Source: a virus
DNA length: 26,810 nucleotides
Strand: one strand, 5' to 3'
Virus record (IMG/VR): IMGVR_UViG_3300047678_000272
Location: 1 to 26,810 of that record
Part shown: one piece after another, positions 8,396 to 20,863 of the stretch
How positions within the stretch are numbered: position 1 is the first letter of the stretch
Layout of the letters: each line of letters opens with the position of its first letter
Program-made: the position numbers and the translations under genes
The notes under the pieces: generated by a model
Told to the model about the DNA's origin: nothing
What the model saw: the letters and a program-made list of their open reading frames with translations, nothing else
The model's database searches: none

Positions 8396-8446
8396 AGAAT
8401 CAGCGTACTTATTAACAATGTGTAGATAACTTATCTGCGCAAAGTA

Positions 8447-8473
8447 TAACTTTTTGTCGTAACTTTCGTATAA
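8447..8473 (+). promoter_or_regulatory. Class 1 phage promoter
   Basis: TAACTTTT-N12-CGTATAA, ATG 14 nt past the motif; the N12 itself contains GTAACTTT, a partial second copy. Confidence 0.8.
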
Positions 8474-8487
8474 GTGATAATAAACTT

Positions 8488-9222
8488 ATGGAAAAACATA
8501 TACAAAAAGTAAAAGTTACAGATTTTGGTAAAAGACATTTTGAGCCAAAGTTCGGTGGTACAAAAATAACAGACATTTCTGCTGAAGAATTTGAAGCTAT
8601 GATTAATTCAGAGCTTGAAGTTTTTTACAAAATAACAGAAGGAAGAAATATACTTCCTATTGTAAGTGATGTTAAAAAAATAATTCCTGGGTATGCTGAT
8701 TTTTGTAAGCTTGTATGTTTAAAAAACAAGACAAGCGCAAGAACAGGTTCTATGCCAATCGCTATTGAAAATTATCAATATTTGAGATCAGGATTTTCTT
8801 CTAGAACTCCTAGTGAACTTCCTGTGATGGATAGATGGTTTGAATTACCATTGCCTGCATCCAAGGCTGAATATCTGATGATTGTTCTTTATTCAAGAGA
8901 GCAATTATTAAAAGAGCATGAGGAAGATTTAAAAAAGAAATTTAAAAGCTGGGAAGAGACTAGAAATGAAACTTTATCTGAATCTGACAAAAAGGCTATG
9001 TGCGAATTAGATGGATTTAAATTTGATTTGAGTGAAGATGATGAATGGGGTGTTGTTGCTATATTAGGACAAATGTCTTCTGACGAAGAACCAATGAAGC
9101 CTATAACAATGATGCGCAATGCTTTGGGTATCTCCGAAGGTGGTTCTGGAGTCTCGATTGACAGAGAAAGATATGCTCAGAGCGTACATTTCTGGTCCAA
9201 CAATGCAACCGTCAAGACCTGA
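8488..9222 (+). CDS. DUF3228 family protein (244 aa)
   Basis: Matches the DUF3228 pattern as I recall it: IIPGYADFCKLVCL, MPIAIENYQYLRSGFSSRTPSELPVMDRWFELP, YLMIVLYSREQ, WGVVAILGQ and PMKPITMMRNALGISEGGSGV, ending DRERYAQSVHFW. The family is uncharacterised. The final FWSNNATVKT is encoded within the edge of an inserted endonuclease gene (the minus-strand CDS overlaps this stop by 46 nt). A second copy of the same 3' end, FWSKNATVK plus stop, lies beyond that gene at 10329-10358, so the present C-terminus was probably supplied by the insertion. Confidence 0.8.
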   Translation: MEKHIQKVKVTDFGKRHFEPKFGGTKITDISAEEFEAMINSELEVFYKITEGRNILPIVSDVKKIIPGYADFCKLVCLKNKTSARTGSMPIAIENYQYLRSGFSSRTPSELPVMDRWFELPLPASKAEYLMIVLYSREQLLKEHEEDLKKKFKSWEETRNETLSESDKKAMCELDGFKFDLSEDDEWGVVAILGQMSSDEEPMKPITMMRNALGISEGGSGVSIDRERYAQSVHFWSNNATVKT

Positions 9223-10295
9223 TTTATGTTTTCAGTATATTTTATAGCAATTAATCCTATATGTTTTTTTTTACAATATTGTTTCTTTATATAATCTCTG
9301 TTTATTTGTTTTTTAAAATTGTTTTCACCACCAAAATAATTTATTGGCTGGTAATGTTGTTTGCCATTATATTCAATACAAATATTTTGATCAGGTAAGA
9401 AAAAATCAAATGGCAATTTTTTGTGAGTCTCTATGTTTAAACAATCTATAAAAGTGTGTTGAGGTATGTATTTTATGTCATTCTTTTTTAAAAACAATCT
9501 TATACCCTTTTCTCCTTTAGATTCAGAACAAACATTACACCCACGACCATTTAAGTGTGAAGATGGCGCTTGACAAAATTCTCCGTGTTTATGGCAAATA
9601 ATTTTTATTTTTGTTTTTGCATTTATATAATTTGTAAGTGAATAATCATATTTATTTTCATGAATTTCATTTGCTGTTTCTATAAATTCTTTTGTAGAAT
9701 AATTGTGTTTATTTGAACATTTTGGGCATCCAGACCCAGATATATGATGATTAGGTTTTTGATAAAAGAATCCATGATTTATGCATTTTATTTTTATTTT
9801 TTTATTTAAGTTTTCATATTTAATGTGAGAATAGTCATATCTAAGTCCATGTTTTTGTATTGATCTTGTTATAAAATCATTAACTGTTATTTTTGGGTTT
9901 TTAACACAAAGAGGGCATCCGTTTTTAGCAGATATATGATTGTCTGGTGTTTGACAAAACTCTCCATGTTTGGGGCAAATAATTTTTATTTTTGATTTAT
10001 TATTAACATATTCTGATTTAGAATAATCATATTTATTTTTATGTAATGTGTTTGCTTGTTTTACGAATGTATTTATATCTTTTTTTTGTTTTAATTTTGT
10101 TTGTTCATTACCACAAAGTCTACAGCCTTGTCCGTTTAAATGATTATTTGGTGTCATATAAAAATCACCATGCGTCTTACATCTTATTTTTATTTTTAAT
10201 AATGAATGTTTATATACAGTTTCTGAATAATCATATTTATTATTATGTATTCTGCGTGTCTTTTCTAAAAATTTATTAGTTTTTGTGCTAACCAT
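9177..10295 (-). CDS. Homing-type endonuclease: DUF723-like repeats plus VSR-like nuclease (372 aa)
   Basis: About four repeats of roughly 65 aa of the form NKYDYS...KIKIICKHGEF..P.NHL.G.GCP.C, typical of DUF723-like zinc repeats and probably DNA-binding. They are followed by a PDDEXK/VSR-like nuclease domain (LPFDFFLPDQNICIEYNGKQHYQP). Start at M of MVSTKTNKFLE (10295) rather than the longer frame, because a TATTTAT element ends 11 nt upstream and the repeats start there. It lies antisense between DUF3228 and its displaced 3' end: a free-standing mobile endonuclease. Confidence 0.85.
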   Translation of the reverse strand: MVSTKTNKFLEKTRRIHNNKYDYSETVYKHSLLKIKIRCKTHGDFYMTPNNHLNGQGCRLCGNEQTKLKQKKDINTFVKQANTLHKNKYDYSKSEYVNNKSKIKIICPKHGEFCQTPDNHISAKNGCPLCVKNPKITVNDFITRSIQKHGLRYDYSHIKYENLNKKIKIKCINHGFFYQKPNHHISGSGCPKCSNKHNYSTKEFIETANEIHENKYDYSLTNYINAKTKIKIICHKHGEFCQAPSSHLNGRGCNVCSESKGEKGIRLFLKKNDIKYIPQHTFIDCLNIETHKKLPFDFFLPDQNICIEYNGKQHYQPINYFGGENNFKKQINRDYIKKQYCKKKHIGLIAIKYTENINQVLTVALLDQKCTL

Positions 10296-10306
10296 ACTGT
10301 TTTTAA

Positions 10307-10313
10307 ATAAATA
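10307..10313 (-). promoter_or_regulatory. TATTTAT late-type promoter element
   Basis: Minus-strand TATTTAT 11 nt before the ATG of the endonuclease gene ending at 10295. Confidence 0.5.
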
Positions 10314-10328
10314 TGTTAAAAAAATTCT

Positions 10329-10358
10329 TTCTGGAGTAAAAATGCAACAGTTAAATAA
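10329..10358 (+). pseudogene. Displaced 3' end of the DUF3228 gene
   Basis: Encodes FWSKNATVK followed by TAA, homologous to the end of the DUF3228 product (FWSNNATVKT). Similarity starts abruptly at TTTCTGG, with no homology upstream, as expected for the original end pushed away by the endonuclease insertion. Confidence 0.8.
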
Positions 10359-10388
10359 ATTTTTTGTAAATTCGTAAAAAATATAACC

Positions 10389-11402
10389 ATGGAAACAAAA
10401 GTAACTATTAAAGATATTCACGATGATTTTAAAAACGTGGATGTAAACTTAGCCAAGAATCTTATTAAGCCAAGTGAGGCTGAGATGAGCAGAATAAATA
10501 AAATGAGAGAATTGGGTTTCACCAATTTCAAAGAAGCAAAAGAGCTTGATCCTAAAAAAATTAAAGCACAAAATGATAAGTTAGCTCTTATTGAAAAATA
10601 TAGAGTGTTGGCTCCTCAGTATAAGTTCATTCCTAAAGAAGATTGGATTGCATTGTGCAATAAATATGGTTTGATTTGGGGCGACTCAAATCTTTACACA
10701 GAATCAATTCCTGTTGATATACAAGAAAAAGTTATTGCATTTCATATTGCTGATAATTCAGTGCTAGCTGTTAAAGATGTAGAAGCTGATGAAGATTATG
10801 ATGATTGGGATGAGCTTGAACATTTCTCAATAAACAATACAGGATTTAAAACTCCAAAAGATTTTAGAGATCTTGAATGGAGAACTATGAAAGGTGAAGT
10901 TATAAAAGTTAGAAACATTGAAGATAGTCATTTGTTAAATTTGTTGAATTTCACTTTGTCAAATTTAAACAGTTCTGTTAGAAATATGTATAGCGTATTT
11001 GTTTCTGAATTTCTTTGCAGACAAGGAGTGATTTCGTATACAGATAATGGCATTGAATTTGAAGTAAACACTTCAAGAAAAAGATTGCCATTTTGGATAG
11101 GTTCAGTTGATGTTAAAGAAACAACTCAAGCAATTGAGAAATCTTATGCAGACCCCACTACAATGAAAATTGACCCAAGATTTGTTATTTGCGCAGCTAA
11201 ACACATGTTTAATTTGACAAAAAAAACAATTGATTCTAAGACAATGGAAATACTTCCAATTCCAAGACCAATTCCAAAGAGAAATTTCTTTATGGATGAT
11301 GATCCTATTGTTGCTGTTGAAACAGTTGATGGGTTCTTAATGGTTGGCGCTTGGGGTGATGAAGCAAGTCATAGCGAAGCAATAAACCACTTCCTTAATT
11401 AA
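10389..11402 (+). CDS. Orphan protein (337 aa)
   Basis: A soluble acidic protein. The N-terminal helix region (DIHDDFKNVDVNLAKNLIKPSEAEMSRINKMRELG) is followed by YKFIPKEDWIALCNKYGLIWGDSNLYTESIPVD, a pattern I cannot assign, and an Asp-rich stretch (DVEADEDYDDWDELEHF). The C-terminus has repeated Pro (PIPRPIPKRNFF). No catalytic motif is seen. Only a weak promoter-like sequence precedes it; it may be transcribed from upstream through the endonuclease insertion. It converges on the J-domain gene with an 8-bp overlap. Confidence 0.7.
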   Translation: METKVTIKDIHDDFKNVDVNLAKNLIKPSEAEMSRINKMRELGFTNFKEAKELDPKKIKAQNDKLALIEKYRVLAPQYKFIPKEDWIALCNKYGLIWGDSNLYTESIPVDIQEKVIAFHIADNSVLAVKDVEADEDYDDWDELEHFSINNTGFKTPKDFRDLEWRTMKGEVIKVRNIEDSHLLNLLNFTLSNLNSSVRNMYSVFVSEFLCRQGVISYTDNGIEFEVNTSRKRLPFWIGSVDVKETTQAIEKSYADPTTMKIDPRFVICAAKHMFNLTKKTIDSKTMEILPIPRPIPKRNFFMDDDPIVAVETVDGFLMVGAWGDEASHSEAINHFLN

Positions 11403-19240: not shown

Positions 19241-19250
19241 CAAAAATTAT

Positions 19251-19345
19251 CAGGAGTTGCAAGAGTTGGTTTAATTGGCTAGTCTTGGAAACTAGTGTGG
19301 GGACTCAGTTGTTCTCCACCGAGGGTTCGACTCCCTCACTCCTGA
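19251..19345 (+). tRNA. Class II tRNA with anticodon loop CTTGGAA (TGG; Ser-like body)
   Basis: Acceptor CAGGAGT/ACTCCTG, three-pair D stem CAA/TTG with GG in the loop, anticodon stem CTAGT/ACTAG, a 7-bp variable arm GTGGGGA/TCTCCAC, T arm GAGGG-TTCGACT-CCCTC. The long arm is that of Ser/Leu/Tyr tRNAs, yet in the only well-paired register the anticodon is TGG (Pro). Reading GGA (Ser) needs a shifted, poorly paired stem. An endonuclease insertion follows it. Confidence 0.85.
19326..19345 (+). repeat. 20-bp direct repeat, copy 1 (tRNA 3' end)
   Basis: TTCGACTCCCTCACTCCTGA, identical to 20131-20150. Together they bracket the minus-strand endonuclease gene. Confidence 0.95.
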
Positions 19346-19411
19346 GGCAATCAAAGTTGAAGTACCTGTACGTGGTGATTGCTACACGCTGATTAATCAG
19401 TGACCAAATTT

Positions 19412-20095
19412 TCAACAATTGTTCTTTGATTTATTGTTTATGATATCTATTATGATATTAAGGAATTCTATACTAGTGCTTTCTTTAAAGTATTTTTGTT
19501 TAGAAACATCTATAATGCATAGTGAGATACTATTTTCTAAACAAGCTTTAAACTTGCGTTGATCATTATTTTGTATTTGATCTAATTTTTCAGAACCATA
19601 TATTGGTTCATAATGAAAAATACCGTTAAGTTCAAATGCGAGTTTTAAAGATGGAATGTAAATATCAAGTTCAGAATTAATTGCTTCCTTTTTGTTGAAA
19701 TCAATATTTAATTGAGGGTAATAAGAAGTAAGTTTTTGTTCTAAATAAATTTCTAGTTTTGATCTTTTTGTGCCAATTTGTTTGTGAGTATTCTGATATG
19801 TGGCTGCGCAAGATCGAGAACAGAAGTGGTTCTTTGTTTTTTTGATTTGACTGTTTTTTTTAATAAAAATTGTATTACAATTTGAACAAGGTGTTTGTAT
19901 GGTATTGTTTTTAAAGTTAGCTGCACATTTTAAGTTGCAAAATTTAACAGAACCTGCCTTTGATGTTTTGTTTAAAAAAGAATTAATATATTTTTTCTTT
20001 TTATAAAAAACATTAGAACATGAATAACATTCAAAAGGTAAAAGTTCGTTTACTTTAGATAATGTAAATTTGTCTTTAGAGTAAAGTGGTTTCAT
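19412..20095 (-). CDS. Homing-type endonuclease: zinc fingers plus VSR/DUF559-like nuclease (227 aa)
   Basis: The N-terminal half has paired Cys knuckles (CYSCSNVF, FCNLKCAANF, CSNCNTIF, FCSRSCAATYQ), probably DNA-binding. The C-terminal half is a PDDEXK-type nuclease of the VSR/DUF559 branch: SKLEIYLEQKL, SELDIYIPSLKLAFELNGIFHYEP with the E...ELD...ExN...H pattern. A minus-strand TATTTAT lies 13 nt before the ATG. The gene sits between a complete class II tRNA and a second copy of that tRNA's last 20 bp, so it entered at the tRNA 3' end and left the tRNA intact. Confidence 0.82.
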   Translation of the reverse strand: MKPLYSKDKFTLSKVNELLPFECYSCSNVFYKKKKYINSFLNKTSKAGSVKFCNLKCAANFKNNTIQTPCSNCNTIFIKKNSQIKKTKNHFCSRSCAATYQNTHKQIGTKRSKLEIYLEQKLTSYYPQLNIDFNKKEAINSELDIYIPSLKLAFELNGIFHYEPIYGSEKLDQIQNNDQRKFKACLENSISLCIIDVSKQKYFKESTSIEFLNIIIDIINNKSKNNC

Positions 20096-20108
20096 AAGTT
20101 ATTTTTAT

Positions 20109-20115
20109 ATAAATA
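20109..20115 (-). promoter_or_regulatory. TATTTAT late-type promoter element
   Basis: Minus-strand TATTTAT 13 nt before the endonuclease ATG at 20095. Confidence 0.5.
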
Positions 20116-20130
20116 GTTATAAATTTAATT

Positions 20131-20150
20131 TTCGACTCCCTCACTCCTGA
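20131..20150 (+). repeat. 20-bp direct repeat, copy 2 (displaced tRNA 3' end)
   Basis: Exact copy of 19326-19345, preceded by unrelated sequence. Best explained as the original 3' end of the tRNA left behind by the insertion. Confidence 0.9.
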
Positions 20151-20223
20151 CACAGAAACGGGTTCTCTATTTAGACCTCTATATGATGACGATTGTATAA
20201 GTTTGTTTAGCGACCCGTATGAA

Positions 20224-20296
20224 CGAGATGTGGCGCAATTGGGAGCGCACGTGCTTTGGGAGCACGGGGTTGCAGGTTCGAGTCCTGTCATCTCGA
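20224..20296 (+). tRNA. tRNA-Pro (TGG)
   Basis: Acceptor CGAGATG/CATCTCG, D arm GCGC/GCGC, anticodon stem CGTGC/GCACG, loop TTTGGGA and T arm GCAGG-TTCGAGT-CCTGT. All stems are complete. Confidence 0.95.
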
Positions 20297-20309
20297 CAAA
20301 AAATAAAAT

Positions 20310-20397
20310 GGTGGTGTAGTTCAGTTGGAAGGCGCAAGCCAAGAATGCTCCCCTGTCACGGGAGAGGTCGAGGGTTCGAGTCCCTTCATCACCGCCA
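20310..20397 (+). tRNA. tRNA-Asp (GTC) with hairpin inserted in the D loop
   Basis: Acceptor GGTGGTG/CATCACC, D stem GTTC/GAAT, anticodon stem CTCCC/GGGAG, loop CTGTCAC, T arm GAGGG-TTCGAGT-CCCTT, discriminator G and encoded CCA. Relative to a normal Asp D loop (AGTTGGAA) there are 12 extra bases (20331-20342) with GGC-GCAA-GCC, a GNRA-capped mini-hairpin. Confidence 0.9.
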
Positions 20398-20400
20398 TAG

Positions 20401-20410
20401 GTTGGAGAAC
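20401..20410 (+). repeat. GTTGGAGAAC spacer repeat, copy 1
   Basis: GTT-GGAG-AAC mini-hairpin, followed by an A/T stretch and ACTCAAA, ahead of the second tRNA-Asp. The same unit recurs before the third Asp gene (near 20540) and in the mini tRNA-like sequence (near 24045). Confidence 0.6.
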
Positions 20411-20423
20411 TTTAAACTCAAAC

Positions 20424-20497
20424 GGATTGTTAGTAGAGCTGGTCACAATGTCGCCCTGTCACGGCGAAGGTCACGGGTTCGAGTCCCGTACAGTCCG
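20424..20497 (+). tRNA. tRNA-Asp (GTC), second copy
   Basis: Acceptor GGATTGT/ACAGTCC, anticodon stem TCGCC/GGCGA, loop CTGTCAC and T arm ACGGG-TTCGAGT-CCCGT. D stem GTAG/CAAT has one mismatch. No CCA. Confidence 0.9.
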
Positions 20498-20539
20498 CAC
20501 AAGTAGTATTTGGTCTACTGTACACTATCAAAATCCAAC

Positions 20540-20550
20540 GTTGGAGAACG
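20540..20550 (+). repeat. GTTGGAGAAC spacer repeat, copy 2
   Basis: CGTT-GGAG-AACG followed by TAAAACTCAAATGG. With copy 1 it shows that a spacer+tRNA-Asp unit was duplicated. Confidence 0.6.
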
Positions 20551-20562
20551 TAAAACTCAAAT

Positions 20563-20639
20563 GGTGTTGCAGCATATTGGTGTATGATGCCTCCCTGTCA
20601 CGGAGGAGATTGCGGGTTCGAGTCCCGTCGATACCGCCA
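20563..20639 (+). tRNA. tRNA-Asp (GTC), third copy
   Basis: Acceptor GGTGTTG/CGATACC, anticodon stem CCTCC/GGAGG, loop CTGTCAC, T arm GCGGG-TTCGAGT-CCCGT, discriminator G plus encoded CCA. Position 8 is C instead of T and the D stem pairs poorly. Confidence 0.85.
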
Positions 20640-20682
20640 GAATGTTTTTTGTATTTTTTTTCTATAATAAAAAAGTACCTAT

Positions 20683-20753
20683 GGGAAAACGGCCAGGGTA
20701 GCCAGGAACGTCTGTAAAACGTAGCCAAGAGAGTTCGATTCTCTCTTTTCCCA
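20683..20753 (+). tRNA. tRNA (GTA, Tyr) with a short class I variable region
   Basis: Acceptor GGGAAAA/TTTTCCC, D stem GGC/GCC with loop CAGGGTA, loop CTGTAAA (GTA at 20714-20716) on stem ACGT/ACGT and T arm GAGAG-TTCGATT-CTCTC. The variable region is only GCCAA, whereas bacterial tRNA-Tyr is class II. T8 is replaced by C. Confidence 0.8.
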
Positions 20754-20760
20754 CACATTG

Positions 20761-20798
20761 AGGTGCGCCAACGCAGGAGAGTTGGGACAGTCTGTAAA
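20761..20798 (+). pseudogene. 5' half of a tRNA-Tyr-like gene, cut after the anticodon loop
   Basis: AGGTGCG, a D-like arm CCAAC-GCAGGAGA-GTTGG (20768-20785), then GTCTGTAAA, which matches a Tyr anticodon loop and stops there. No 3' half follows. The fragment's last 9 bases pair with TTTATAGAC (20103 bases upstream-numbered as 20803-20811 in the next line of the stem), forming a hairpin. The HNH gene and then an intact tRNA-Tyr lie downstream. Confidence 0.5.
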
Positions 20799-20840
20799 AT
20801 AATTTATAGACAATTTGGTTCTTTTCTTGTTTTTTATTAA

Positions 20841-20847
20841 TATTTAT
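20841..20847 (+). promoter_or_regulatory. TATTTAT late-type promoter element
   Basis: TATTTAT 16 nt before the HNH start at 20864. Confidence 0.5.
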
Positions 20848-20863
20848 AATTAAAATACGTATT

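Follow-up and report, generated by a model that had tools for sequence, protein, structure and literature searches.

Mobile open reading frames (ORFs) with duplicated C-termini are known from fungal mitochondria, where they occur in atp6 of Allomyces macrogynus and in atp6, atp9, cox2 and nad3 of Glomus (PMC3630166, partial text). According to the same partial text, the in-frame end in these cases is foreign, and the native end is displaced and groups with the host lineage. N-terminal duplications are described for introns of Tremella (PMC7315562, partial text). Free-standing phage enzymes are located between genes, and their cut sites lie hundreds to thousands of bases away from the genes that encode them (PMC2988022, partial text). 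Two phage reviews and a phage survey mention, in the parts available, splitting and intergenic insertion and no replaced ends (PMC2988022, PMC2993671, PMC10448857); likewise, among the titles and abstract openings returned by open-access literature searches there is no phage description of a replaced target end. The locus described here is part of IMG/VR virus record IMGVR_UViG_3300047678_000272 (positions 1 to 26,810; this whole stretch of 26,810 nt is referred to as the window), in which an antisense endonuclease gene lies at the 3′ end of a gene for a DUF3228 protein. The locus very probably represents a free-standing homing endonuclease element that uses intronless homing with a diverged substitute end for its target gene.

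A selfish element in a conserved gene must avoid killing its carrier, and introns and inteins do so by splicing. A substitute end would be a third way, here in phages and earlier known from fungal mitochondria. As in Allomyces and Glomus, an endonuclease ORF is located at a gene end, one end is fused to the gene body and a second end is displaced past the ORF (PMC3630166, partial text). The differences are the phage DNA, the Vsr/I-Bth0305I-like nuclease with zinc fingers and the antisense orientation of its gene. By analogy, the element works like the fungal ones, in phages and with a different nuclease; given that the window is a virus record with phage-like genes and not fungal mitochondrial, it is not counted as a member of the fungal class. 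Like the free-standing seg and mob homing endonucleases of T4, it is a standalone gene adjoining a conserved phage gene, for which spread by break repair between co-infecting phages would be expected (PMC2988022, partial text). In contrast to seg and mob, its presumed cut site is the insertion junction itself, and the element replaces the end of its target gene.

The two ends of the DUF3228 gene

The features of the locus are as follows.

8488-9222, + strand: DUF3228 gene, a complete frame of 244 amino acids (aa) closed by the putative substitute end; PF11539, E = 1.4e-51
9118-9222, + strand: probable extent of the substitute tail, drawn from composition only, with a blurred left limit
9190-9222, + strand: intact end FWSNNATVKT with its TGA stop, continuing the frame of the DUF3228 body
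9177-10295, - strand: endonuclease gene, from the ATG at 10295 to the stop codon at 9177-9179; phrog_559, E = 4e-83
9180-9524, - strand: C-terminal nuclease domain (residues 258-370), PD-(D/E)XK fold of Vsr / I-Bth0305I type in the predicted structure
9525-10295, - strand: N-terminal zinc-finger repeats, the presumed DNA-binding part; DUF4379/CapR/DUF723 matches, four repeats in the model
10296-10328, no strand: right edge of the element, the endonuclease upstream region; junction T/TTCTGG (slash at the junction), same in L100
10329-10358, + strand: displaced native end FWSKNATVK plus TAA, severed from the DUF3228 body; top profile match in the window
10359-10388, + strand: native spacer after the displaced end, resembling the post-stop sequence of uninterrupted L002/L088
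10389-11402, + strand: next native gene, whose L087 homologue directly follows DUF3228; 42 % identity, E = 4e-77

The endonuclease ORF sits between a complete DUF3228 gene and a displaced second copy of the end of that gene. As noted in the preliminary description, with correct coordinates, the DUF3228 frame ends FWSNNATVKT inside the antisense endonuclease gene; its last codons and the 3′ end of the endonuclease ORF overlap by 46 nt (9177-9222). Aligned with four relatives, the DUF3228 protein has its full C-terminus and stop, the terminal residues being SVHFWSNNATVKT. The second end past the endonuclease, also claimed earlier, is present at 10329-10358 and reads TTC TGG AGT AAA AAT GCA ACA GTT AAA TAA. 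The two ends have 8 of 9 residues in common, and only 20 of 27 bases. A 10-column profile of 19 DUF3228 C-termini, scanned over the whole window in six frames, ranks 10329 first (35.7 bits) and 9190 second (26.9 bits), with the third match at only 6.5 bits. None of 2000 shuffles of 10296-10388 reaches 35.7 bits (maximum 10.2), and the profile peak in whole-window shuffles (n=30) is 16.2.

Relatives of DUF3228 were found at 25 loci in viral contigs, 20 of which were read after omission of duplicates (L092, L093, L102, L110 and L111); no match was found in named phages. The uninterrupted genes end DFWSKNATVK-TAA (L002/L088), DFWSLNATVK (L003/L089), EFWSKNATVK (L090) and EFWSKNAIVKS (L087). These ends are similar to 10329-10358, which is the outcome that had been anticipated for phages lacking the insertion; the contrary outcome, an uninterrupted homologue unlike 10329-10358, was not encountered. 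In the relatives nearest to the window, DFWSKNATVK or a similar terminus is followed at once by spacer. Locus L087 has an uninterrupted DUF3228 gene of ~59 % protein identity and is syntenic with the window on both sides; its homologue of 10389-11402 begins ~11 nt (within about a dozen) past the DUF3228 stop. A search for relatives of the 10389-11402 protein returned none, yet L087 encodes one, which is a limit of the seed patterns. After the TAA at 10358 the window reads ATTTTTTGTAA, resembling TTTTTTGTAA after the stop in L002/L088. Because the spacer and the 10389-11402 gene follow it, the second end appears to be the native one, severed from its gene. The earlier proposal that the element brings a substitute end and leaves its target intact is thereby supported, the DUF3228 frame being complete and its uninterrupted relatives ending like 10329-10358.

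Base composition is consistent with this assignment. In the window DUF3228 gene, G+C content at third codon positions (GC3) is 0.49 over the final 35 codons, compared with 0.21 in the rest, and 2 of 209 overlapping 35-codon segments have a value this high or higher. The step suggests an imported end with a blurred left limit. Within the window itself, GC3 and the profile scores point towards a foreign intact end and a native displaced end.

The same arrangement is apparent at a diverged DUF3228 gene, L100, which is 37 % identical to that of the window. The L100 gene ends FWSKNATVL plus stop, its antisense endonuclease overlaps it by 14 nt, and FWSKNATVK plus stop lies past the endonuclease. 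Native sequence resumes at TTCTGG in both (TCT/TTCTGG in the window, TCG/TTCTGG in L100), and the two endonucleases are reciprocal best matches (54.7 %) among all endonucleases compared. A displaced end is found in the single other DUF3228 locus with an endonuclease (L100) and in 0 of 19 without.

A conserved DUF3228 piece beyond an endonuclease could also be produced by a group I intron or intein, with 10329-10358 as the true last exon spliced onto DUF3228, and phage endonuclease genes are often located in introns (PMC2988022, partial text). However, DUF3228 is already complete with its stop and full C-terminus, so no splicing is required, and the endonuclease is antisense to it. Additionally, no intron family is detected in 8400-11200, even at E <= 1, or at the gathering threshold in L100, L216, L013, L129, L132 and L072. 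Splicing is therefore extremely improbable as an explanation; the endonuclease is a standalone gene, a complete antisense ORF outside any intron or intein.

The endonuclease

The listed endonuclease ORF starts at 10421 (GTG). The alignment with relatives begins only near the ATG at 10295, thus 10296-10328 is taken as noncoding upstream sequence. The predicted structure has a mean predicted local distance difference test score (pLDDT) of 91.4. Foldseek by itself gives no match at E <= 0.001 for this model; re-examination of its hits with VIA-align superimposes the nuclease domain on Vsr (1cw0; Z 10.8, 102 residues, 2.7 A) and on I-Bth0305I (3r3p; Z 10.6, 92 residues, 2.9 A). The modelled nuclease domain has a Vsr-type PD-(D/E)XK fold. 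The label ‘HNH endonuclease’ given to the family in PHROGs finds no support in the predicted model. Sequence searches returned no match in the PDB at E <= 1 and none in NCBIfam. With I-Bth0305I the predicted fold is the same, yet identity is only 22 %, and the DNA-binding part of I-Bth0305I differs from that of the window endonuclease.

Among 34 relatives E262, D297, E308, Q313 and H314 are invariant and are candidate catalytic residues. D334 and K337 are likewise conserved. Since the candidate residues are invariant and the frame is open, the window endonuclease may be active. EDxHD is the family name for the catalytic motif of I-Bth0305I-like/Vsr-like enzymes (PMC6083498, partial text). Phage homing endonucleases with CapR/DUF723 have repeated zinc-finger domains of the same Pfam types; unlike the window endonuclease, these carry a T5orf172 (GIY-YIG-like) nuclease domain (PMC10448857, partial text).

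Element-bearing and element-free loci

The same endonuclease family is located at the end of an unrelated conserved gene in L073/L216, encoding a 385 aa protein that we guess to be a neck protein. Here close relatives with and without the element can be compared. L216, with the element, is 97.0 % identical in DNA to L217, without it, over L216 1-3158, and 97.8 % identical between L216 4113-5155 and L217 3126-4167; 954 nt are inserted and 33 nt duplicated. The clean junction that the preliminary description had expected is seen, for the same kind of element, in this pair of 97-98 % DNA identity; the uninterrupted relative of the window, L087, is only ~59 % identical in protein. Identity of L216 to L217 is 98 % in the gene body, 92 % in the displaced end and only 62 % in the intact end (45 nt). 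The displaced end is followed by the same terminator-like hairpin as the end of L217, and the best identity of the intact end among 79 loci besides itself is 76 % (L239, L262). These values indicate that in L216 the functional end has been exchanged and the native end displaced, the foreign-fused, native-displaced pattern of Allomyces and Glomus. The same two-block pattern is apparent at a third gene (L296 compared with L297, L298 and L300), and L132 is a further case of a displaced end.

For the L073-type gene 80 loci were fetched, of which 79 have a readable stop (the remaining one runs off its contig) and 67 have at least 900 nt downstream. A displaced end is found in all three loci with the endonuclease (39-47 bits) and in none of the 64 without it (best 3.1 bits). 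The element is therefore patchily present at one site among related phages, which fits transfer to element-free phages in mixed infection. Taken alone, a C-terminal scrap would look like what is left of a deleted second paralogue of DUF3228 that had no relation to the endonuclease. However, displaced ends accompany the endonuclease, such scraps being absent from all 19 DUF3228 and all 64 L073-type loci that lack it; moreover, the L100 junction is identical to that of the window and native spacer follows the scrap. A paralogue remnant is thus very improbable.

In the established layout a diverged working end closes DUF3228 and overlaps the endonuclease 3′ end, and the native end lies beyond the endonuclease start. 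With homing as the preferred reading, the endonuclease would cut an uninterrupted native end near T/TTCTGG, and a co-infecting genome that carries the element would serve as the repair template; its gene body would form the left homology arm, and its displaced native end together with the sequence downstream the right one. The substitute end would keep the target gene working without splicing and would escape cutting through its sequence difference from the native end. Such an element would resemble an intron without splicing, in which the downstream exon is replaced, not rejoined. It is also akin to engineered homing drives with a recoded rescue.

Displaced ends that retain the recognised sequence are expected to be more alike than intact ends. 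Between phages with the same target, identity of displaced versus intact ends is 0.69 versus 0.64 for L073/L132 and 0.81 versus 0.63 for the window and L100; the margin is slight in a third pair, L013/L129 (0.70 versus 0.67), and all stretches are short. The displaced ends of L073 and L132 have CCTATGGGATTC in common, which is absent from both intact ends. Leu replaces Met at the CCTATGGGATTC position in many uninterrupted relatives too, thus this difference is weak evidence for protection.

Occurrence at other endonuclease loci and tRNA genes

A survey of 215 loci plus the window yielded 214 endonuclease ORFs in 169 clusters, 159 of them testable. Untargeted duplicate searches used 350 nt flanks and then, for the 159 de-duplicated endonuclease clusters and 207 control ORFs, 500 nt flanks. 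With the longer flanks, duplicate scores of at least 60 occur in 16 of 159 clusters and 4 of 207 controls (Fisher p = 7e-4), and scores of at least 70 in 14 and 1, respectively (p = 6e-5). On inspection 10 of the 16 high scores are target-gene ends (L072 twice, L084, L129, L013, L068, L055, L183, L035 and L041). The remaining six were rejected as artefacts: L154 and L069 (twice) are tandem endonucleases, and L186, L213 and L120 are repeats at edges or in non-coding DNA. The matches among the controls, four in all, are only partly explained; L086, which scores highest, resembles a pair of tandem paralogues. A search aimed at the known gene end adds L073, L132, L135, L100 and the window. The window scores 45 or less in the untargeted searches; its end pair is too short for them, unrelated pairs scoring up to 53, and its case therefore rests on the profile, conserved gene order and independent loci.

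The 3′ end is affected in the window, L100, L013, L129, L073, L132, L135, L072, L068, L183 and L035, and the 5′ end in L041, L055 and L084. Initially the endonuclease 3′ end was thought always to be located at the intact copy; this was dropped, as L084, L068, L183 and L035 contradict it. What the loci do have in common is an intact end still joined to its gene body and a displaced end on the other side of the endonuclease. As with the introns of Tremella, a gene-end duplication travels with the mobile element in the 5′ cases L041 and L055, the former being introns in fungi and the latter free-standing phage genes (PMC7315562, partial text).

Target-site duplication and drift is an alternative for these pairs of ends; a gene end copied during repair of a staggered or resected break would need neither import nor protection. 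The two ends within one genome are similar in L129 (92 %) and L100 (85 %), within-genome identity exceeds between-genome identity in L013/L129, and a short, almost perfect repeat marks the edges of the element in L213. However, the L216 values run opposite to the neutral-drift prediction, the functional copy being 62 % identical to L217 where the unused copy is 92 % and the body 98 %. The GC3 step at the DUF3228 tail of the window likewise speaks against duplication and drift, which we consider unlikely as an explanation of the locus.

Several results nevertheless weigh against homing with an imported end. In L129 and L100 the likeness of the ends makes import unneeded, duplication and drift being enough. 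In several cases the protein difference between the ends is as large as the DNA difference, which indicates ordinary allelic divergence and not a predominance of synonymous recoding. A displaced end is clear in 8 of 19 converging, overlapping endonuclease/gene pairs (the window entered as clear on its profile evidence), doubtful in 2 and absent from 9. Likewise, 19 endonucleases in five cultured phages include no convincing case (one score of 49), making the arrangement a minority habit of the endonuclease family; eleven regions from named phages also contain no convincing duplicated end.

On balance, we lean towards the view that phages carry recurrent end-replacing homing elements, which would target the ends of conserved genes, 5′ or 3′, as well as tRNA genes, bring a cleavage-resistant working end and retain the displaced end for use as a homology arm. 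If so, recoded-rescue homing drives would have a natural counterpart in such elements, which could also stack (L072), recording successive invasions. The ends of conserved phage genes would be swapped between lineages, which gives a mechanism for their horizontal exchange; such swaps would account for part of the orphan gene-end scraps and tRNA fragments of phage genomes and for some diverged C-termini in conserved phage genes. Homing with built-in rescue would also have a natural model in these elements, testable in cloned form.

Some individual loci are of interest in their own right. L072 3569-6065 contains two stacked endonuclease genes and three successive copies of one C-terminus; judged from these copies, the stack records two invasions of one site. 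The target gene is presumably acetyltransferase-like, although this name is a guess. Three related endonucleases are located, in L041, L055 and L173, at the 5′ ends of different genes whose products all start with MKQ, with displaced starts in L041 and L055 and a short possible one in L173 (MKQPIKKNKK). In L213 3904-4999 (Erwinia phage Hallingskeid) a near-perfect direct repeat (38/39 nt) flanks the endonuclease and extends into both neighbouring sequences, with 19 residues identical in another frame.

Within the window, a second element is associated with a tRNA gene.

19250-19346, + strand: complete tRNA gene beside the second element; ARAGORN: Pro tgg
19412-20095, - strand: second, shorter endonuclease gene, antisense to the tRNA; phrog_559 E = 5e-9, own profile E = 2e-9
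20131-20150, + strand: displaced tRNA end, an exact 20 nt copy of the tRNA 3′ end (19326-19345), past the endonuclease start

The long variable arm suggests that this tRNA is a tRNA-Ser. The 19412-20095 endonuclease has weak similarity to the family of the 9177-10295 endonuclease. Same-anticodon tRNA pairs near endonucleases were considered as further cases and set aside, an exact displaced copy being found only at this element.

An HNH endonuclease gene (20864-21535, + strand) is located 5 nt ahead of a complete tRNA-Tyr (21541-21624), and ~20762-20799 resembles a tRNA 5′ half that shares its anticodon loop. The region 20683-21624 possibly follows the same principle with a different nuclease family. 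Two GIY-YIG endonucleases (23369-24010 and 24841-25617) lie among the tRNA genes; their N-termini are near-identical and their C-terminal parts differ, and the direct-repeat listings contain no displaced gene end at either. The window has 18 tRNA genes (19250-26775 and 146-2653), with same-anticodon pairs for Asp, Ala, Gly gcc, Gly tcc, Met and Arg tct. Between the two tRNA-Arg(tct) genes is a 403 aa ORF (420-1631), which we take to resemble an aminoacyl-tRNA synthetase.
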